Assembly (NCBI RefSeq): GCF_003076275.1
Contig: NZ_CP029064.1
Span: 3,296,501 to 3,360,500, forward strand
Reading direction: 5' to 3'
Source: Microbulbifer sp. A4B17
GTDB lineage: Bacteria > Pseudomonadota > Gammaproteobacteria > Pseudomonadales > Cellvibrionaceae
Length of the DNA: 64,000 nt
Positions 1 to 36,209 of this stretch are shown here, one piece after another. A model generated the notes under the pieces. That model was not told the origin of the DNA and ran no database searches. It saw only the letters and a list, made by a program, of their open reading frames with translations. Position 1 is the stretch's first letter. Each line of letters opens with the position of its first letter. A program made the translations under genes and the position numbers.

Positions 1-920
1 CTCACCCAGTAGCCCAGAGAAAATACGGCTGCTGTCGATAAAAAAGAGACTATCAACCAGAAAAAAGCACTTCCCTTCAGCAGGATAAAAGTGAAGGCCA
101 CTCTCCCTAAACAAAGCAATCCGAAAAAGATTGAAAGTAAAATATCCGCCTCAACGGCCCAGTGCCCTCCCCTAGCTTCAAGAAGTAGTACCATCCTACT
201 CGCCAATATATGTTCGGCGCCGTTGTAGGCAGAAACAATAAACCCACCACCAATTGCGATCCACCACTCTTTCGGTTCTTTATCTCGTTGGCTTGTCTCT
301 TTATAGGCGCCAGGGTTAAAAGAACTCCCATTTTTCCTCAGCTTTCCTTTTCTTCTTATTAATCCAGACAAGATAAAAAATAATATGCTTGCCGCTAGCC
401 CCCCAAACAAATAAAAGCCGCCCTCCCATCCAAAGTGAAATTTATACAACAATCCGGGTAACAAAGGAGACAATATGGAGGCCATCCCATAGGTACTATG
501 TAATCCACAATAACCTTGACGAGTTAAGTTTTCAGGCACAAAAAGAGGAATTGCCACATTAATCAAAACCATGCTCCCGCCGGCACCCAAACCAAAAAGG
601 AAGCTGCCCAGAATAAGCAGGGTAAACGAGTGCAGATATCCAGAGATACCTGAAAGTACCGACCCTACTCCCATAAAAACTACGAATAATGCTAATCCAG
701 AGATCACTCTTATTTTTTTCACCCAGAGAGACCCTGACAAAGTCATAAGTAAGGCAGAAAAAGTGGACAGGAAGAAAAAGGTGGAGCCCTTCGTTGGGGA
801 AACAGAAAAGAAATCTAAAATCTTGGGGTAAATTGGATCTTTATAGACCTCTATAAAGCCCAGTAAAAATAGAGCCCCATAGCATGACAACAATCCAAAC
901 CAGTAGATGTTGCGTTTCAC
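1..920 (-). CDS. MFS transporter, partial at window edge
   Basis: The minus strand is open from a GTG at 920-918 to the window edge with no stop (about 306 residues). The protein begins VKRNIYWFGLLSCYGALF and consists of alternating hydrophobic segments (roughly residues 5-20, 48-65, 72-95, 100-125, 165-185) with short basic loops, typical of a major facilitator half plus part of the second. A glycine-rich stretch GAGGSMVLINVAIPLF lies near residue 115. The GTG overlaps the stop of the upstream gene in a GTGA, so the two are almost certainly co-translated. Inference: it exports or imports the product of the adjacent fused cyclitol-type enzyme. The C-terminus is outside the window, and the substrate cannot be read from sequence. 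Confidence 0.82.
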   Translation of the reverse strand, partial: MKRNIYWFGLLSCYGALFLLGFIEVYKDPIYPKILDFFSVSPTKGSTFFFLSTFSALLMTLSGSLWVKKIRVISGLALFVVFMGVGSVLSGISGYLHSFTLLILGSFLFGLGAGGSMVLINVAIPLFVPENLTRQGYCGLHSTYGMASILSPLLPGLLYKFHFGWEGGFYLFGGLAASILFFILSGLIRRKGKLRKNGSSFNPGAYKETSQRDKEPKEWWIAIGGGFIVSAYNGAEHILASRMVLLLEARGGHWAVEADILLSIFFGLLCLGRVAFTFILLKGSAFFWLIVSFLSTAAVFSLGYWV

Positions 921-3900
921 GCAGCCCTTCTTTTGATATATTGATCACATTCTTCAATCATTCGGATTGCTTGTATAGAATCGGCAAGAGGAAGATCCGG
1001 TGATTCTCTTAAATTTTTTTCAATACATAACTGAACGGCCTGTGCCTCATAATAAAGTCCCTCAGAATTTGGATAATTAAACCTACCTCTTATTCTCGGC
1101 AACGGGAATTCGTACAACTTAGTCTCATTATCTGTCCTTCGATCACCGGTGATCCGCGTCACTGACACCTTAGTTGGACAATGTGCCGGGGCAAACACTT
1201 TTATCCGCCCTTCGGTACCATAGATCTCCAACTCTTCCGCACCTTCAACCAGATGACTCCAGGAAACTACAGCTGTTGATCCACTATCGAAGTGAGCATA
1301 AATGAGTCCGGCACCATCCTCCTGGAAACCGTAGTTATCCAGCACCCCAGAGAACTCCAGGTCTGATATCCCCCTACCCAATACCATCAGCGCCGTGTGA
1401 ACAGGATACACACCGGCATCCATACCAGCTCCCACCTTCCATTTCGGAGACTGCAGCCCTTCATCCTTGCGCAGGTCAAAGCTCAAATCTGCACGAAGCT
1501 GGCTTACCTTACCTATATTTCCAAGATTAATAATATCTCTACAGTATTTAATAGCAGGGAAGAACCTCATCCACATCCCTTCCATACAAAACAGCTGTTT
1601 TTTATTGGCAAGCTTTTTAATCCTTACAGCATCCTCAACCGTTAGCGCCAAAGGTTTTTCAATAAGAACAGGCTTACCTGCCATTAAAGCTAATTCAGCA
1701 TGTTGTCGGTGTAGCTCAGGGATAGTTGCAATATAGACAATGTCAATATCAGGATCAGAAACAAGTTCCAGGTAACTGCCATAAGCCCGAGTTGCTCCAT
1801 GTCTATTTGCAAACTCTCTCGCTCTATTAAAATCCCTGGAAGCTACAGCAAAGACTTCCGAGGAATCCAGGTAATCGAGGACTAGTGCAAAATCATTTGC
1901 TATTCTTCCACAGCCTATAAATCCCCAGCGAAGCCTTCTCAAAGGTAACTTTTTAGCACTTTGATGACTGGTCAAGTCTAATTGCTTAGGTAAATACCCC
2001 TCCTCTGCTATTTCATCAGGATCCAATATGAGCTCCGGATGACGAGTAAGCCTCTCTTGCAGGTCATACCAAGCGCTTTCCAGATGGTTCGCCTCTATCT
2101 TATTGACCCAAATACAGTTTCCTAGAGGGGCTGGGAGAGGCGCTCGCAAAGTACCGGAGCGATGAATCGAGATCTGTTTTATTGCCGTCTTGTATACATC
2201 CAGGCTCAGCCCTTTGACACTAGCTGCAAGTCCCAGCTGCACGTAAATTCCAAACAGTAACTCAATGTCTGCCTTGGATATCAATCCCATTTTTTCAGCT
2301 ACCAGCGAAGTAAACAGGCAATCAATACCCACAGCCTCACCATGCATCAACCTGAAAGCCTCATCACGCTCCAACCATCGGGATAACGTATGTCCAAAGT
2401 CCATTGGCCTGGATAAATTCTCTTCATTTAAGTCTCCCGCAATACTATCCAGCATGGCATCAATACAATTTATCAGCAGCTTATAGGATGCATCACCCGG
2501 TAGGCCATCAGGTTCCAAAAATTTATTTTCCAACAGAGTGGCGCCCTGAGCTGACAAGGTATCGAGCACATCCTTATTGAATACCACGCCTACCTTAATC
2601 ATTTCACCAATCGCACTTTTTAATACCCGTTGTGGATTAGTTTTCAAGAAAGAGGGATCAATGATGGTATGCAAGGGACAATGAAAAGCACCAATCCCAT
2701 TCTTAATATTGTGGTTCACACTGACTTTGATGCCGATAGAGGAGTCAATCATTCCCATTAGAGTCGTTGGGATACGTATCCAGGGTGTATTGCGTCGCCA
2801 CACCGCACTGACAAACCCAATCGTATCGGTTACCGCCCCTCCGCCCATAGCTAAGATTGGCTCCCTATAGCGAAGAGGATTTGCCTTCCATATCTCATCA
2901 ATCATACTGATAAGACTATTAATATTTTTTGACTGTTCGCCACCCTTCATAACTATCGGAATAAACTCAATCCCCATGGACTCTTGCCACTCGGTAATAC
3001 CCTTCCCATAGAGTTCCCATACCTTGTCATCAACACAACAAATAATTCTATTCTGCGGCGGTCTTAGGAGTTCTATAAGGAATTTATTACCAGAATTAAA
3101 GAGTCCATGGTGGTACCAGATTCTTTGGTTTGTTGGAGCCTGACAAATAGTATCTGAAATTTGTACGATAGAATGATGGCCTTCATCTTCTCTTAATTGA
3201 GCCTTAATACTGGGCTCTATCGCTGCGGCCAATTCAAGAACACCACATGCATGAAGCAGTCGCGGCAGGCTCAAGTATTTCTCATCATCGCTATCTAGAA
3301 TGGATTCAATAAACAGCCGCTTCAGATTGCGATAATCTCGCTCAAACAAGTAGCAATACCACATCCCTCCCTTTTCTTTTCTAGTAAGCTCAAGTGCCCG
3401 ATCGAGCACATCTTGTATGGCCTGGCGAATAAAAATAGGCCTACCTCTAAGGCCTTTTCGCATCACTATGCAATTTTCGACGCCTTCACAACGGGTAGCC
3501 AGAAAAGAGAAACTCACTCCCAGATTAGTTTTTAACGTAAAAGACAGCTTTTTGAAGTCCTCGATATCACCGAAACGCTTCTGCACGGTTTCATCTCGAT
3601 TCACCACTACATCAGTAATGTTGTGAGGAGCAAGGTTCCACTTTGCTATACAAAGTTCAAGTTCATGGCAACACTGGTTGAGCAGCATACCCTCGGAATT
3701 TTGCCTAAAAATGCTTTCCAGGTTGGCTTCCGGATGCGGATTGTGATGAATAAATCCGACGCTCCTGGACTTCAACTTCCATTGCTCATTAAGCCTCTCA
3801 GCTTTATCCACGTAGTTTGCGATATGCTTTTGATAGCCAACAACAACATTTACATTCTTTATGTCGGCGATCCTTTCCATTTCACGCAGTTTTTCCAACG

Positions 3901-4273
3901 AGTCGGCACCAGGTTTTTCAAGATATATATTCCTATATCCTTTATTAACTACCGATTCAAAAATTCCCTTCGTGAGTAGAGTCCTCACCGAGATAACAAC
4001 CAAATTTTTTAAGGAGGGATGCGCATCAGGTATTTGCTCCACCGAGGAATAAGCTTTGAAATCGCCATACTGAGCTTTTAGTCTTGCCATCTCCCCTCGG
4101 AAAATCACCCCTTTTTCAGAAGATGCGATATCACTTGAGAGCCAATACTCTTCAACAACCGCATCTACCACTACATTTGCCATATTCATTAGCTGAGACA
4201 AATGCAGCCATCCGATTGACTCCCCAGGCAGACCGACACCTACCACCGTGACATGCACCACATTCTGTTTCAT
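917..4273 (-). CDS. Three-domain fusion: Gfo/Idh/MocA oxidoreductase, EEVS-like sugar-phosphate cyclase, Gfo/Idh/MocA oxidoreductase
   Basis: About 1118 residues from the ATG at 4273; an in-frame start at 4306 adds 11 unconvincing residues. Domain 1 (about 1-365) has a Rossmann start VTVVGVGLPGESIG and the EKPG motif of Gfo/Idh/MocA proteins. Domain 2 (about 375-760) is a 3-dehydroquinate-synthase-fold sugar-phosphate cyclase: GGGAVTDTIGF, RIPTTLMGMIDSSIG, metal-ligand regions GEMIKVG, MDFGHTLSRWLE and HGEAVGID, and a late HRSGTLRAPLP. The RIPTTL and HRxGxLxxPLP forms resemble 2-epi-5-epi-valiolone synthase and desmethyl-4-deoxygadusol synthase more than AroB. Domain 3 (about 775-1118) is a second Gfo/Idh/MocA enzyme (GFIGCGRIAND, IEKPLALT, GAGMDAGVYPVH) close to dihydrodiol-dehydrogenase-like members. 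Family knowledge: such cyclases act on sedoheptulose 7-phosphate. Inference: the protein makes a cyclitol and oxidises or reduces it twice. Coupled to the downstream MFS gene by GTGA. Confidence 0.85.
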   Translation of the reverse strand: MKQNVVHVTVVGVGLPGESIGWLHLSQLMNMANVVVDAVVEEYWLSSDIASSEKGVIFRGEMARLKAQYGDFKAYSSVEQIPDAHPSLKNLVVISVRTLLTKGIFESVVNKGYRNIYLEKPGADSLEKLREMERIADIKNVNVVVGYQKHIANYVDKAERLNEQWKLKSRSVGFIHHNPHPEANLESIFRQNSEGMLLNQCCHELELCIAKWNLAPHNITDVVVNRDETVQKRFGDIEDFKKLSFTLKTNLGVSFSFLATRCEGVENCIVMRKGLRGRPIFIRQAIQDVLDRALELTRKEKGGMWYCYLFERDYRNLKRLFIESILDSDDEKYLSLPRLLHACGVLELAAAIEPSIKAQLREDEGHHSIVQISDTICQAPTNQRIWYHHGLFNSGNKFLIELLRPPQNRIICCVDDKVWELYGKGITEWQESMGIEFIPIVMKGGEQSKNINSLISMIDEIWKANPLRYREPILAMGGGAVTDTIGFVSAVWRRNTPWIRIPTTLMGMIDSSIGIKVSVNHNIKNGIGAFHCPLHTIIDPSFLKTNPQRVLKSAIGEMIKVGVVFNKDVLDTLSAQGATLLENKFLEPDGLPGDASYKLLINCIDAMLDSIAGDLNEENLSRPMDFGHTLSRWLERDEAFRLMHGEAVGIDCLFTSLVAEKMGLISKADIELLFGIYVQLGLAASVKGLSLDVYKTAIKQISIHRSGTLRAPLPAPLGNCIWVNKIEANHLESAWYDLQERLTRHPELILDPDEIAEEGYLPKQLDLTSHQSAKKLPLRRLRWGFIGCGRIANDFALVLDYLDSSEVFAVASRDFNRAREFANRHGATRAYGSYLELVSDPDIDIVYIATIPELHRQHAELALMAGKPVLIEKPLALTVEDAVRIKKLANKKQLFCMEGMWMRFFPAIKYCRDIINLGNIGKVSQLRADLSFDLRKDEGLQSPKWKVGAGMDAGVYPVHTALMVLGRGISDLEFSGVLDNYGFQEDGAGLIYAHFDSGSTAVVSWSHLVEGAEELEIYGTEGRIKVFAPAHCPTKVSVTRITGDRRTDNETKLYEFPLPRIRGRFNYPNSEGLYYEAQAVQLCIEKNLRESPDLPLADSIQAIRMIEECDQYIKRRAA

Positions 4274-4662
4274 AGCGGCAACATTTAACCTCGCACCCGC
4301 TGGCACTACCCAGATCGTCAGAACCGGGCTTGCACTTCTAACTTATTGCTAATGTGCGCCGATTTACGACTCAACTCTTTTTCGGTGCCTGAGGGTATAG
4401 ACCACGATCAACGCTTCTATCTGGCGTCTTTGCAGCTCAATAGACGTCAGGACGCGCCGATAATGCTTCACCTGACGGCTGTCGCTTTGCCAAAGCCATT
4501 AAATAGCGGCTGAACACTAAATCAATCAAATATCCAACAAAGATTGCCAAAAGCTATCACACGCATTTACATTAATAATTTTTATCAAATTTCATCGACC
4601 GATAGTATAGATCCCACTTCCAAACAACGACCGACAAGACAGTGATGAATAAGGAGCTATCC
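4274..4662 (+). promoter_or_regulatory. Intergenic region with probable ahpC promoter
   Basis: No gene is visible between the divergent fusion gene and ahpC. A plausible sigma70 promoter is TTGCCA near 4541, 18 bases, then TACATT near 4565; a second -10-like TATAGA lies near 4606. A clean OxyR site (four ATAG/CTAT elements at ten-base spacing) could not be assembled, although single ATAG and CTAT elements are present. AAGGAG at 4650-4655 is the ribosome binding site of ahpC. Confidence 0.4.
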
Positions 4663-5229
4663 ATGTCACGTTACATCGAATCCCAGCTGAAACCCTTTAA
4701 CGCCAAGGCTTATCAAAACGGCGACTTCTTCGATATCAGCGACGCCGACGTTAAAGGCAAGTGGGCCGTATTCTTCTTCTACCCCGCAGACTTCACCTTT
4801 GTCTGCCCCACTGAGCTGGGCGACCTGGCGGACAACTATGAAGAGTTCAAGAAGTTGGGCGTTGAGATCTACTCCGTATCTACCGATACCCACTTCACCC
4901 ACAAAGCCTGGCACGACTCTTCCGACACAATCGGCAAAATCCAATACCCGATGATCGGCGACCCCACCGGCACCATCACTCGCAACTTTGGTGTGATGAT
5001 CGAAGAGGAAGGCATCGCCGATCGCGGCACCTTTGTGATCGACCCGGAAGGCCGTATCCAAATTGTCGACATCACTGCCGGTGGAATCGGTCGCGATGCC
5101 AGTGAGCTGTTGCGCAAGATCAAGGCTGCCCAGTACATCGCCGCTCACCCCGGTGAAGTCTGCCCGGCCAAGTGGAAAGAAGGCGAAGAGACCTTAGCCC
5201 CCTCTCTCGATCTGGTAGGAAAGATTTAA
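4663..5229 (+). CDS. ahpC: Alkyl hydroperoxide reductase subunit C (2-Cys peroxiredoxin)
   Basis: 188 residues, the usual AhpC length. The peroxidatic cysteine lies in TFVCPTE (Cys48) and the resolving cysteine in PGEVCPAKW (Cys167), matching Cys46 and Cys165 of the enteric enzyme. It reduces H2O2, organic peroxides and peroxynitrite in the cytoplasm and is re-reduced by AhpF, encoded 76 bases downstream. The start at 4663 is chosen because AAGGAG precedes it at good spacing and the product then begins [12 protein letters not shown]; a GTG at 4642 would give a seven-residue extension that contains the Shine-Dalgarno sequence. Codon use and G+C look like core genome, unlike the AT-rich genes around 10 kb. 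Confidence 0.97.
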
Positions 5230-7335: not shown

Positions 7336-9021
7336 GTGACCCTATTAGCATTGAGAGTAGTTGTGCCCTTACTACTACACATTACCAGTGAAGCTTTAGC
7401 CCATACTATTTCTGAAAATCATTATAAAATTGATGTGTGGGCAGACAACTGGTTTTCAGCCTATATAGACGGAACCCCCCTACTGGAAGACTCCACACCA
7501 ATTACCACAGAGCGATCCTTCAATAAGGAAACAAAAAGCTTCTCCGCAGAGCCCCCTTTCGTATTATCCTTTAAAATTAAAGACTACAAAGAAAACAATA
7601 CCGGACTTGAGTACATAGGTACTCACCGCCAACAAATGGGCGATGGTGGCTTTATCACCCAGATAACCAATCAGGATACTGGCAAAGTCATCACAACTTC
7701 TGATTCAGCCATGCGTTGTATTGTGATTCACAAAGCCCCACTCAGCAGCAGCTGTACCCAGGAATCTAACCCGATAGCCGGCCAGGGGGGATGTCAGTTT
7801 AATACTTCACAAGAACCCAATGATTGGAAGACAGCATCATTTGATGACAGCTCCTGGCAACAAGCTACTGAATACTCCGCACATCAGGTAAGGCCTAAAG
7901 ACGGCTATGAACAAGTTGAATGGAATTCAAAGGCAAAACTGATTTGGACAAGTGACCTAGAGAAAGACAACACTATCCTCTGCCGAATGGTAGTTGGTAT
8001 TACTCCAGCGACAGTTCCAGTAACGCAGGAAAATACACAAAATGAATTACAATCCCAGTTTAGTCACTTCCCAAATGTAAAAACCCGAGTGGATTCAAAT
8101 TATTTATATATAGAATCCAACGGCATGCCCAACCACGATATGATGGAGGGAATTACCAGCTGGCAGCAACAAGTTCCATTACCCCAGGGCTATACCGGTA
8201 ACAATGCATGGCGAGTGCCACTTAAGCCAGTCCTTGCAAAAGAGCCAATCTTAACCAAAACCCATTTCTTCAAAGGTGCGATTGCTATTGCCGTCAATGG
8301 TGTTCCTATTTTTAATGCCATGAATAATCGTGGCGAATTCGCTGCCGACATCGGTGAGCTGGATAAATGGGGAGGTCATAGTGGCAGAGGTGATGACTAC
8401 CACTACCACCTGGCCCCCATTCATCTGGAACCCATCGTTGGCAAAGGAAACCCTATTGCCTATGCATTGGATGGATTCCCCCTGCTGGGGAAAACTGATA
8501 AACCTCTGGATCAGTATCTGGGAAGGTTCAACGAGGAAGGCTCTTACCAATATCATGCCGTTGATTACCCTCCCTACTTTATCGCTGGTCTGCGTGGAGA
8601 GGTGAACACAGACTCACCAGCGAATGCCCCTGAGGACCAAATTATTCCTCAGCCTAGTGCCTTGCCAGTTCGCAACGGGGAATATGGTCCTTTGCAAGGT
8701 GCAATAATTACTACTTTTACTAAAATTTCTGACAACAGCTACAAGCTTACTTACACTCTAAATGGGAGTGAAAATCAGGTAAATTATAGCTGGGATAAAA
8801 GCGGCACCTACCAGTTTGTTTTTATTGATAAAGATGACAAGAAAACTGTGGAAACTTTTCAGAAAAATAAAAGCCCTACACCTGAAGATGGTAAGCAGAG
8901 GCCCTCATTACGGGATCTCGGAAAGAAGAGTGCAGGAAGCCAACATAAGCCAAGAAAATATTGCGGGGATGGGCTATGTGACAAAACTGAAAATAGGCAG
9001 CAATGTCCAGCAGACTGCTAA
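7336..9021 (+). CDS. Secreted YHYH-domain protein with Cys-rich C-terminal tail
   Basis: 561 residues from a GTG start, the only credible start in frame; GAGAG lies about seven bases upstream. Residues 1-23 (TLLALRVVVPLLLHITSEALA) form a signal peptide, so the protein is exported. The middle contains GRGDDYHYHLAPIHLEP and, before it, FKGAIAIAVNGVPIFNAMN, the hallmark of the YHYH family (function unknown; the His/Tyr cluster suggests metal binding). A 19-residue tail CGDGLCDKTENRQQCPADC has six cysteines in the CGDGxC...ENxxxCPxDC pattern seen at the ends of other secreted bacterial proteins, probably a small disulfide- or calcium-stabilised module. Convergent with the curlin gene to its right, sharing one bidirectional terminator. 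Confidence 0.85.
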   Translation: MTLLALRVVVPLLLHITSEALAHTISENHYKIDVWADNWFSAYIDGTPLLEDSTPITTERSFNKETKSFSAEPPFVLSFKIKDYKENNTGLEYIGTHRQQMGDGGFITQITNQDTGKVITTSDSAMRCIVIHKAPLSSSCTQESNPIAGQGGCQFNTSQEPNDWKTASFDDSSWQQATEYSAHQVRPKDGYEQVEWNSKAKLIWTSDLEKDNTILCRMVVGITPATVPVTQENTQNELQSQFSHFPNVKTRVDSNYLYIESNGMPNHDMMEGITSWQQQVPLPQGYTGNNAWRVPLKPVLAKEPILTKTHFFKGAIAIAVNGVPIFNAMNNRGEFAADIGELDKWGGHSGRGDDYHYHLAPIHLEPIVGKGNPIAYALDGFPLLGKTDKPLDQYLGRFNEEGSYQYHAVDYPPYFIAGLRGEVNTDSPANAPEDQIIPQPSALPVRNGEYGPLQGAIITTFTKISDNSYKLTYTLNGSENQVNYSWDKSGTYQFVFIDKDDKKTVETFQKNKSPTPEDGKQRPSLRDLGKKSAGSQHKPRKYCGDGLCDKTENRQQCPADC

Positions 9022-9078: not shown

Positions 9079-10028
9079 CTACTGATATATAATCCTTACA
9101 TGGGTAAAACCCGTTTGAATGGCCAATGCCGTTTGACCAGAACCACTCTGCATCGCAGTGATAGAGTTATCTACTCCAACCTGATTAGTGATAGCGGAAC
9201 TAAAGGGTGCATCGGATTGGAGTATATTGGCGTTATTCATCATCCCAAATTGCTCTGAAATCACATCACCAGCTCCAACGACTCCCTGTTCTATATCTGC
9301 GGTATTGTCCGCTCCAATTTGATTTATTAGCGATGAACTGACTTCAACATCTTCCTGAATCAGGGTAACACTATTCAACTCTACAGATTGATTCAAACTA
9401 GCATGACTGGATATAACGGACGCAAGATCGTCCTGTTGAAGTAAAGCATTATTCATTAGCCCCAGCTGATTAACTAGCACAACCGATGACCCCCCCCCTC
9501 TTCCTGAGTTATTCGCCTAATATTTAAAGATCCTGCTTGACTAAGCACTGATAAGCTAAAAGATGTATCTTCATCCTGGTCGTTTCTTGCCTCATTAAGC
9601 TCACCTAACTGGTTGATACCGGCAAAACTGGATACTACAACCTGGTGCTGATCTAGATCAGCAAAGTTACCATTTCCGGCTTGATTGATAACCGAAAGCC
9701 CAGCATCAACAATGGCACCCTGCCTCAATTCTGCTTGGTTTGCAGCTACATCAATATCCTGAATAATAAAAGCATCATTTCCGGTACCTAACTGAATAAT
9801 TGATAAAGCACTTGAAGATACATTACCCGCTTGAGTACTTGATGCAATGTTTAACGATCCAACCTGAAAGTGAAATGCTGCATTATTACCAGCGACAGGC
9901 TCTTGTAAAGCTGTTGAACTGTTTAAGGTACCTATTTGGGTTTGAGAAGCGGAATTGTTGTCAGCCAACAAATAGCTTGAGATTGCTAGAGAGAGTGCAG
10001 ACACTAACGAAACAATTGAAGATCTCAT
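9079..10028 (-). pseudogene. Curlin-repeat secreted protein, reading frame broken at a nine-G tract
   Basis: The gene starts at the ATG at 10028 with a signal peptide (MRSSIVSLVSALSLAISSYLLA) followed by repeats of the curlin type, Q-x-G-x2-N-x5-Q (for example TQIGTLNSSTALQ, FQVGSLNIASSTQ, IQLGTGNDAFIIQ). After 184 residues it runs into nine consecutive G (plus-strand C at 9490-9498) and stops. In the next frame the same repeats continue without a break to 9079, ending in the IIYQ expected of curlin-family C-termini. Gain of one G or loss of two restores a protein of about 316 residues. It may therefore be a phase-variable gene in the OFF state, a true pseudogene, or a homopolymer sequencing error. 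No csgG, csgE or csgF export genes are nearby. Curlin repeats form extracellular functional amyloid in known members. Confidence 0.8.
9490..9498 (-). repeat. Homopolymeric G9 tract inside the curlin-repeat gene
   Basis: Nine C on the plus strand, G on the coding strand, located exactly where the curlin reading frame switches. Homopolymeric G tracts of eight or more inside surface-protein genes are classical slipped-strand mutation sites. Confidence 0.9.
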
Positions 10029-10778: not shown

Positions 10779-11720
10779 ATGAATAAGCATCAAACACCAT
10801 TTGGCCTTATTTTAGCATCATCTCTTGGACTAACAATTTCCCTTAACAGCTTTGCCGTTAGCTGTGGAGACACAATTACTACCCAGGAAACACTGACAGA
10901 GGACCTATTGTGCACCGACAACCCTGCCCTTACTATTTCCGGCCCAGGTGGCGGGCTTGATTTAGCTGGATTTACTGTAGAGTGTTCTGACTCATCTAAT
11001 GAAGGTATTTATTTAACAGGTCTCGCCGCAAGCGTGACTTCAGGTGAAGTGACAAATTGCTTCAACTCAATACTACTGGTGGATGATGGCGTTCATTCAG
11101 TTACTGACATTGAAATAACTGAACCTGATGAAGTAGGAGTTGTTATTGATAGTAACAGTAACTTTGTAACTGGAGTCCAGGTAATTGCTGGTTCAGGTGA
11201 CTTTGCCACTGGCATTAATATAGAAGATCCAGCAAGTTACAATCAGATTCTTGGAAACTTCGTAGAGGGTGCAGTGTTTGCTGGAATATATGTAGAAGGC
11301 CGAGGAAATAATATCACCAGCAATGAAATTGTAGGCTCAGACAACTTCGGAATAAGACTTGATCCCGATGGTTTCAGCAATCTAATTCTTCAAAATATCA
11401 TTGATGGAGGTGCAGGAATCGGAATAGCAGTAAACTCTGACTTTAACTTAATCTCCCAGAATTCAATAAATAACAACCAAACGGGAATCAGTATTGAGAG
11501 CGCTGACAATAACACAGTCAATATCAACACATCTGACAATAACAGTGTCTATGGGATAGCGATTCAGGGCACAGACGCTAACTTCAATAGTATTCTTTCA
11601 AATAGTGCAGACAATAATGGCGATTTTGATCTCTTCGCATCAGATGACCCAGACTGCACCTCAACAAATAATTGGATTGGCAATAGCTTCACCACTAGCG
11701 ACCCAGGCTGCCTGAATTAA
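10779..11720 (+). CDS. Secreted right-handed parallel beta-helix repeat protein (copy 1)
   Basis: 313 residues. The N-terminal signal peptide ends near SLNSFA/VSCGD. The mature protein starts CGDTITTQETLTEDLLC and continues as about ten short repeats with the N-x-I-x-x-N-x-I rhythm of NosD/pectate-lyase-like beta-helices (NQILGNFVEG, NNITSNEIVG, NLISQNSINN, NTVNINTSDN). It ends NNWIGNSFTTSDPGCLN. The same N-terminal CGDTI... and C-terminal DPxC...FTTSxPxCL caps occur in the paralogue at 36407-37387, which also sits beside a curlin-repeat gene. Probably a secreted or surface carbohydrate- or fibre-associated protein; no catalytic residues are evident. A hairpin at 11751-11789 may terminate it. 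Confidence 0.85.
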   Translation: MNKHQTPFGLILASSLGLTISLNSFAVSCGDTITTQETLTEDLLCTDNPALTISGPGGGLDLAGFTVECSDSSNEGIYLTGLAASVTSGEVTNCFNSILLVDDGVHSVTDIEITEPDEVGVVIDSNSNFVTGVQVIAGSGDFATGINIEDPASYNQILGNFVEGAVFAGIYVEGRGNNITSNEIVGSDNFGIRLDPDGFSNLILQNIIDGGAGIGIAVNSDFNLISQNSINNNQTGISIESADNNTVNINTSDNNSVYGIAIQGTDANFNSILSNSADNNGDFDLFASDDPDCTSTNNWIGNSFTTSDPGCLN

Positions 11721-12278: not shown

Positions 12279-12728
12279 ATGATGAAGAATATTGCACCTC
12301 TTTCCGCCGGTACTGCCCTCGCAATCATCAGTCATGGAGCTATCGCCGACTCTAATACCGCCACGGTGTATCAGGAAGGTATTAGTAACACAGCTACGGC
12401 CGTTCAAAGTGATCCGACCGCCACCAACAACACCATCGATCAAACTCAGATCGGTGATAACAACACCAGCTATGCAGAGCAATCTGCTAACAGTGATGGC
12501 GGCACCATTATTCATATCCAAACTGGTGATATGAATAATGCTGAGTCCTATCAGGACAATTCAGTTGGCGCCTATATAGAGATTAACCAGGGCGACAACA
12601 ATCAGTACGTATTCACAAACCAGTCATTTATTGATGGCAGCTCCATGTCTATTACTCAAGATGGAGATGGACAGACTGCTATCGCCAACCAGGTAGGTAC
12701 TGCGAATATAGGAAATATCTTCCAGTAG
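12279..12728 (+). CDS. Curlin-repeat secreted protein, short form
   Basis: 149 residues, about the size of CsgA/CsgB. The signal peptide ends at HGAIA/DSNTA. The mature part is five to six curlin repeats (YQEGISNTATAVQ, TQIGDNNTSYAEQ, IQTGDMNNAESYQ, NQGDNNQYVFTNQ, TQDGDGQTAIANQ) and ends IGNIFQ, the aromatic-Gln end typical of curlins. Rich in N, Q, S, T and D with no cysteine, consistent with an extracellular amyloid subunit. AGGAG at 12271-12275 serves either of two adjacent ATG codons. A strong terminator follows at 12744. Third curlin-like locus counted with 9-10 kb and 34-36 kb; which copy is the major subunit cannot be told. Confidence 0.87.
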   Translation: MMKNIAPLSAGTALAIISHGAIADSNTATVYQEGISNTATAVQSDPTATNNTIDQTQIGDNNTSYAEQSANSDGGTIIHIQTGDMNNAESYQDNSVGAYIEINQGDNNQYVFTNQSFIDGSSMSITQDGDGQTAIANQVGTANIGNIFQ

Positions 12729-33718: not shown

Positions 33719-33795
33719 GCGCTCGTAGCTCAGCTGGATAGAGTACCTGGCTACGAACCAGGCGGTCGGAGGTTCGAATCCTCCCGAGCGCGCCA
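33719..33795 (+). tRNA. tRNA-Arg (ACG), copy 1
   Basis: 77 bases with encoded CCA. Acceptor GCGCTCG/CGAGCGC, anticodon stem CCTGG/CCAGG with loop CTACGAA (anticodon ACG), T arm GGAGGTTCGAATCCTCC. Followed by a strong terminator. Identical to the copy at 36133-36209. Confidence 0.97.
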
Positions 33796-36132: not shown

Positions 36133-36209
36133 GCGCTCGTAGCTCAGCTGGATAGAGTACCTGGCTACGAACCAGGCGGTCGGAGGTTCGAATCCTCCCG
36201 AGCGCGCCA
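36133..36209 (+). tRNA. tRNA-Arg (ACG), copy 2
   Basis: Identical in all 77 bases to 33719-33795, with two further identical bases before and one after. Anticodon ACG, encoded CCA, own terminator. The flanking sequences and terminators of the two copies differ. Confidence 0.97.

Follow-up and report, generated by a model that had tools for sequence, protein, structure and literature searches.

How should a bacterial gene be read in which a sugar-phosphate cyclase stands between two oxidoreductases, and what would such a protein make? The question is raised by the left end of a stretch of Microbulbifer DNA of 64,000 nucleotides, which was analysed whole and is called the window here; its source genome is 5.04 Mb in one contig. 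Cyclases of the EEVS type act on sedoheptulose 7-phosphate, and acarbose, validamycin and gadusol go back to valiolone-type cyclitols. To our knowledge, C7-cyclitol pathways use separate cyclases, dehydrogenases and kinases. A preliminary description of the window had proposed that one chain unites an EEVS-like cyclase with two unlike oxidoreductases of the GFO/IDH/MocA type (GFO) and is coupled to a transporter gene of the MFS type.

Reading frame, domain layout and distribution

The fusion gene and its parts are laid out as follows, with residues numbered from the ATG at 4273.

917..4273, minus strand: three-domain fusion CDS, 1118 aa plus stop, an intact ORF with ATG at 4273
3125..4273, minus strand: N-terminal divergent GFO domain (N-domain), residues 1-383, with GVGLPG at 12-17, EKPG at 119-122 (K120) and NQCCHELE at 199-206 (N199, H203)
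2003..3124, minus strand: sugar-phosphate cyclase domain, residues about 384-757, with metal ligands E557, H628 and H644 and the EEVS-type pair D625 and H704
1937..2002, minus strand: variable linker, residues 758-779
920..1936, minus strand: C-terminal GFO domain (C-domain), residues 780-1118, with GCGRIA at 787-792, K873, D952 and Y956

The four aligned orthologues share the ATG at 4273 as their start; a GTG-initiated version of the frame reaches 4306, and 917-4306 on the minus strand is free of stops. Pfam recognises DHQ_synthase (102.7 bits, cut-off 24.2) and DHQS_C (63.3 bits, cut-off 27.6) in the middle of the protein, and GFO_IDH_MocA together with its C-terminal domain at the end, both above cut-off. 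The same three-domain ORF is found in 4 of 48 Microbulbifer genomes, namely the source genome, G045, G030 and G021 (M. okhotskensis), and thus both chance and an assembly join are excluded. A frame artefact is likewise ruled out, as the ORF recurs in independent assemblies of 1, 1, 3 and about 620 contigs. The proposed single polypeptide with three enzyme-like domains is therefore real. Over the first two domains, identity to the window protein is 84% for G045 and 74% for both G030 and G021; over the full length, the three orthologues are 81, 75 and 73% identical to it.

The three domains appear to be kept, each with a low dN/dS: 0.063 for the N-domain (one computable pair of six), 0.058 and 0.081 for the cyclase (two of six) and 0.060 and 0.076 for the C-domain (two of six). 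These 5 of 18 domain pairs span 0.058-0.081 and the remaining ones are saturated at synonymous sites, so that all three parts are shown to be under purifying selection where dS is unsaturated. The linker between the cyclase and the C-domain is only 8-23% identical between orthologues (counting gaps as differences over 26 alignment columns), and this final junction thus resembles a flexible tether. Structure prediction of the full-length fusion gave a mean pLDDT of 36.7.

A search for the same domain order in other genomes returned the three further Microbulbifer genomes and, among the genomes sampled, none outside the genus. The other genomes in the 48-genome search matched the cyclase part alone. 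Matches spanning the N-domain were found in 4 of 144 family genomes (cyclase part only in 6 more), in 1 of 369 class genomes (the source genome; cyclase part only in 10 more) and in 2 of 390 order genomes (the source genome and G030; cyclase part only in 3 more), and an N-domain profile matched 1 of 398 phylum genomes, again the source genome, at E ≤ 1e-8. These family, class, order and phylum draws are overlapping samples searched with strict E limits, and in none of them was an N-domain-spanning match seen outside Microbulbifer. Scanning genome contigs with the patterns DIEDFKK and FCMEG[ML]W, which reach close relatives only, recovered one fusion (that of M. okhotskensis) among 26 loci. No relative was found among viral contigs with exact peptide patterns drawn from one protein, which likewise reach no further than close relatives; among plasmid and phage records none covered 80% of the fusion query, and no plasmid matched the N-domain. 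Phage or plasmid origin was rejected on these results. The literature yielded no report of such a cyclase-GFO fusion, a weak negative given that most subscription journals were beyond reach.

The two oxidoreductase domains

The C-domain has the features of a GFO enzyme, including Rossmann and C-terminal domains above cut-off, the EKP lysine and an Asp..Tyr motif. Its best match is the dimeric dihydrodiol dehydrogenase 2o48, with which it aligns almost end to end: K97, D176, Y180 and W125 of 2o48, which we take to be active-site residues, correspond to K873, D952, Y956 and W901. Cofactor choice between NAD(H) and NADP(H) can be read from the residue at the end of the second strand. In the C-domain this strand ends in SR, and the arginine (R813) is R in at least 90% of 14 aligned rows, which suggests NADP(H) use. 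The N-domain has at the corresponding place a glutamate, E41, invariant in all four orthologues and suggestive of NAD(H) use.

Free genes related to the C-domain lie near the fusion locus in 2 of the 48 genomes, each near a GST-like gene.

L036 1051-2178 (G021, M. okhotskensis): free GFO paralogue of the C-domain
L102 715-1980 (G045): free GFO paralogue of the C-domain

With the M. okhotskensis copy as query, identity of the free paralogue to the fused C-domains is 58-60% for three of them and 56% for the G045 one, and the other relatives compared share 28-36% with the window C-domain. The fused and free copies thus share a more recent origin. In the G045 locus, an ABC-F gene (L102 3104-4759) separates the MFS gene from the GST and GFO genes; its score of 312 bits does not reach the ribosomal-protection cut-off of 380.

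The N-domain is harder to classify. Taken alone, that of the window protein scores 22.1 bits with PF01408 against a cut-off of 24 (E 2.7e-4), and the same model matches the N-domain in all four orthologues at a loose E ≤ 5 (best 9.1e-7). All four are also matched by the inositol 2-dehydrogenase model TIGR04380 at E ≤ 1, the best with 4.6e-8; the match in the window protein spans residues 62-254 (E 9.2e-7) and scores 28 bits against a cut-off of 355. A weak alignment (E 0.13) with PDB 4hkt, an inositol 2-dehydrogenase, places NQCCHELE over DMTIHDFD, so that the His is kept and the Asp is replaced by Asn (N199). All four proteins retain the Rossmann motif, the EKPG lysine and H203 unchanged. The predicted structure of the N-domain has a mean pLDDT of 50.2, with 55-89 per block of ten over the first 150 residues (the Rossmann half) and mostly below 50 in the rest. 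Its best Foldseek matches are biliverdin reductases (E from 4.8e-6, TM about 0.3), which support the Rossmann half only, and profile comparison with C-type GFOs gave a probability of 29% (E 0.0006, 79 columns). From these similarities, the N-domain would be a divergent GFO of inositol-dehydrogenase-like type. The flanking oxidoreductases do differ as proposed, one being inositol-dehydrogenase-like and the other near dihydrodiol dehydrogenase.

Could the N-domain instead be a non-catalytic scaffold or regulatory domain, with only the C-terminal GFO domain acting on the ring ketone? We consider this unlikely. It would fit the Pfam score below cut-off in the window protein, the Asn at the place of the 4hkt Asp and the profile that matches the source genome only among the phylum genomes, but a domain without catalytic work sits less well with a Rossmann motif, lysine and histidine retained in four of four proteins and with the dN/dS of 0.063 from the one computable pair.

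The cyclase domain and its relatives

The motifs claimed for the cyclase are present, with RIPTTL at residues 500-505 and HRSGTLRAPLP at 704-714, and the metal ligands E557, H628 and H644 are found in all four fusions; a loss of ligands, which would have spoken against a working cyclase, is not seen. The identities of the residues that discriminate EEVS from DDGS, and their numbers D281 and H360 in ValA, are our assumption, and 5tpr (deposited as 3-dehydroquinate synthase; Nostoc HK-01 relative) is presumably desmethyl-4-deoxygadusol synthase (DDGS). At the discriminating sites all four fusions have D625 and H704, as in ValA. DDGS rows read in frame (5tpr, Nostoc and L082) instead have Ala/Thr, and most AroB rows have Asn/Val, a pair absent from the fusion. 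EboD rows share the D/H pair, but the H360 site is followed by HL in EboD and by HR in EEVS and the fusion. The underlying residue table has 60 rows, with L074, L081 and L084 (wrong frame) and 3qbd (gap at the H360 site) left out. That two positions separate EEVS from DDGS is described in PMC4426668.

Among solved structures, the nearest by phmmer are 5tpr (206 bits) and ValA, 4p53 (199 bits), with the best AroB, 3okf, at 117 bits. The 5tpr segment shares 33.1% identity with the cyclase and the ValA segment 33.8%, the latter over 337 aligned positions, and the highest value among 43 non-fusion rows is 34.9% (L081, a DDGS-group row). The cyclase misses the cut-offs of both TIGR01357 (AroB; 190.6 bits against 305) and PRK06203 (166.7 against 333), the latter being the model that recognises, with 594 bits, the Gloeothece row labelled EboD in this analysis. 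No ebo genes were seen among the neighbouring ORFs, as judged by eye. A separate aroB-type gene is present in the same genome; with the missed AroB cut-off, this led us to reject the cyclase as an AroB duplicate.

Trees were computed without nine AroB-type rows (L010, L012-L016, L018, L019 and L033), and one of their rows, L080, comes from a stretch with one TGA. In the 51-row tree the cyclase falls within the EEVS and DDGS group (96/93), apart from the AroB and DOIS rows (99/95) and from EboD, on a branch of 2.2. The 40-row tree, from which 11 further long or odd rows were left out, again has it within EEVS and DDGS (97/90) and outside AroB (100/99), on a branch of 2.5. However, trees in which the fusion is made to group with AroB are not rejected by AU tests (p 0.137, and 0.0905 in the 40-row set), nor are those in which it is made to group with EboD (p 0.126 and 0.0944). 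Within the larger group, fusion plus DDGS is a weak best grouping (79/94), and fusion plus EEVS is also not rejected (p 0.257 in the 40-row set). With ligands and a D/H pair as in ValA, but a lone branch and AU tests that leave these groupings standing, the cyclase is classed here as of EEVS type by its active site and, by descent, as probably a separate lineage. The preliminary description of an EEVS-like cyclase thus stands as regards the active site and is qualified as regards ancestry: the best trees place the domain away from AroB, but a grouping with AroB or EboD is not rejected (p 0.09-0.14).

The long lone branch, the AU results and the D/H pair common to EboD would also suit a cyclase that takes another sugar phosphate, as its AroB, EboD and DOIS relatives do, so that the product would not be a valiolone-type C7 cyclitol. 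Scores under the AroB and PRK06203 cut-offs, the absence of the N/V of most AroB rows, HR rather than HL after the H360 site and nearest PDB chains that are 5tpr and ValA all argue against this, and we regard such a substrate as quite improbable.

The operon, its proposed product and known systems

The fusion gene is followed by a single partner, and the two are bordered by peroxiredoxin genes.

1..920, continuing left of the window (L004 3838-4920), minus strand: MFS transporter gene, 360 aa, with a 4-bp overlap with the fusion gene
4642..5229, plus strand: peroxiredoxin gene of the AhpC family, right-hand border of the operon
L004 3076-3642, left of the window: second AhpC-family gene, on the other flank of the operon

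The proposed coupling of the MFS gene to the fusion was borne out: the 4-bp overlap occurs in all four loci (the window, L036, L102 and L103), and this MFS gene was found in 4 of 144 family genomes, the same four that have the fusion. In the window genome the MFS protein is 360 aa, about 40 residues shorter than its orthologues (398, 398 and 401), owing to a frame change near its end; the conserved tail is still encoded in another frame, and the last segment is lost. This frame change is either a real mutation or a sequencing error.

In all four fusion genomes the operon lies between two ahpC-type genes, one of them adjoined by an ahpF-type gene. The two ahpC copies are 85% identical over a 300-nt direct repeat (L004 3061-3360 and 8648-8947), and GC content in 1-kb windows is 42.5-45.4% wholly inside the operon vs 48.5-54.4% wholly outside. 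An ahpC match (E ≤ 1e-70) is found in 47 of 48 genus genomes, with two or more in nine, and five of these nine are without the fusion (L119-L123). Three of them (G034, G044 and G040) have the two ahpC genes adjacent, with no ORF of at least 90 aa wholly between, and the other two (G043 and G029) have a 2OG-Fe(II) oxygenase gene between the copies. With the gap empty or differently filled in relatives, it is a small insertion site whose cargo varies, and the ahpC neighbours thus say little about function. The two-gene operon was probably acquired horizontally.

Other features were noted nearby. Next to the M. okhotskensis locus is a third ahpC, an incomplete remnant (L036 2377-2775). To the right of the operon, the window encodes a YHYH-domain protein (7336-9021), a right-handed beta-helix protein (10779-11720) and short proteins with curlin-type repeats (9079-9480 and 9474-10028, minus strand; 12279-12728, plus strand), suggesting amyloid fibre subunits. 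Two tRNA-Arg(acg) genes with equal Rfam scores lie about 2.4 kb apart (33719-33795 and 36133-36209).

We give a rough probability of 0.6 to the reading that this probably acquired operon, with its EEVS-type cyclase, two GFO domains and MFS transporter, makes a small free C7 cyclitol that is exported. The cyclase domain would convert sedoheptulose 7-phosphate, with its own bound NAD+, to a 2-epi-5-epi-valiolone-like ring ketone and phosphate, and the two flanking GFO domains would next act on ring positions, altering their oxidation state or stereochemistry. The N-domain would probably use NAD(H) and the C-domain NADP(H); an NAD+-dependent oxidation paired with an NADPH-dependent reduction could, in a single pass, leave the cyclitol reduced or inverted. 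No kinase, phosphatase, transferase, aminotransferase or methyltransferase gene is present in the two-gene operon, and since kinase, transferase and aminotransferase are lacking, the product is probably a free polyol. The MFS protein is a probable exporter of this cyclitol. Substrate, product, cofactors, order of steps and direction of transport are what we infer; the sequences themselves show the fusion and its recurrence, the conserved motifs, the selection where it could be measured and the coupling to the MFS gene. More tentatively, and with some doubt, we suggest a trifunctional single chain in which the EEVS-type ring product passes to NAD-linked and NADP-linked domains, giving, by net reduction or stereo-inversion, a C7 polyol outside the cyclitol pathways known to us and with dedicated MFS export.

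We consider it very improbable that the operon makes an antioxidant of gadusol or deoxygadusol type next to ahpC and ahpF, which serve peroxide defence. The ahpC and ahpF neighbours are there in four of four genomes, and gadusol does arise from EEV via a methyltransferase-oxidoreductase (PMC4426668), but the operon is without a methyltransferase, the DDGS A/T pair is absent, and since the gap contains nothing or unrelated genes in relatives, position need not imply shared function.

A natural cyclase enclosed by two oxidoreductases within a single chain and accompanied by a transporter would amount to a minimal pathway, the cyclase would represent a sedoheptulose-7-phosphate cyclase lineage distinct from the EEVS and DDGS rows of this comparison, and marine Microbulbifer would be the possible source of a new natural product.

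Do the same parts occur together as free genes? We scanned 25 cyclase loci (ORFs of at least 120 aa, E ≤ 1e-5, flanks of 1.5 to about 9 kb) and found a GFO gene in two of them and the N-domain in none. Both are from genomes of the class of Thermocrispum. In L112 the cyclase has the EEVS fingerprint, and SDR, GMC oxidoreductase, GFO, sugar MFS and HAD genes come after it on that strand. In L117 a cyclase gene begins about 90 bp past the end of a GFO gene on the same strand. That cyclase, GFO and MFS occur side by side as free genes supports the view that the fused parts serve one pathway, though 23 of the 25 loci are without this arrangement. In the actinomycete locus L117 (8947-11409), the cyclase row L083 has N/L at the D/H sites and is possibly another cyclase type.

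Among known enzymes, ValA (4p53) resembles the fusion cyclase in its E/H/H metal ligands, its D281/H360 pair and its HR.G motif followed by PLP, but is a 420-aa chain as solved, without fused oxidoreductases and 33.8% identical, and the fusion stands on a separate tree branch. The DDGS 5tpr is closest by phmmer score (33.1% identity) and in the weak sister grouping (79/94), but has A/T at the discriminating sites; the Nostoc DDGS gene is accompanied by O-methyltransferase and D-Ala-D-Ala-ligase-type genes, both of which the fusion operon lacks. The dihydrodiol dehydrogenase 2o48 is like the C-domain in K97, D176, Y180 and W125, whereas the C-domain is fused behind a cyclase. The N-domain recalls IolG (TIGR04380; 4hkt) in its weak match over residues 62-254, its EKP lysine and its His motif, but lies far under the model cut-off, has Asn for Asp and is fused. 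Finally, the vertebrate gadusol pathway (EEVS plus MT-Ox) shares with the fusion the order of EEVS and then oxidoreductase, and its MT-Ox is itself a two-domain protein. It differs in comprising two proteins, with a methyltransferase present (PMC4426668).
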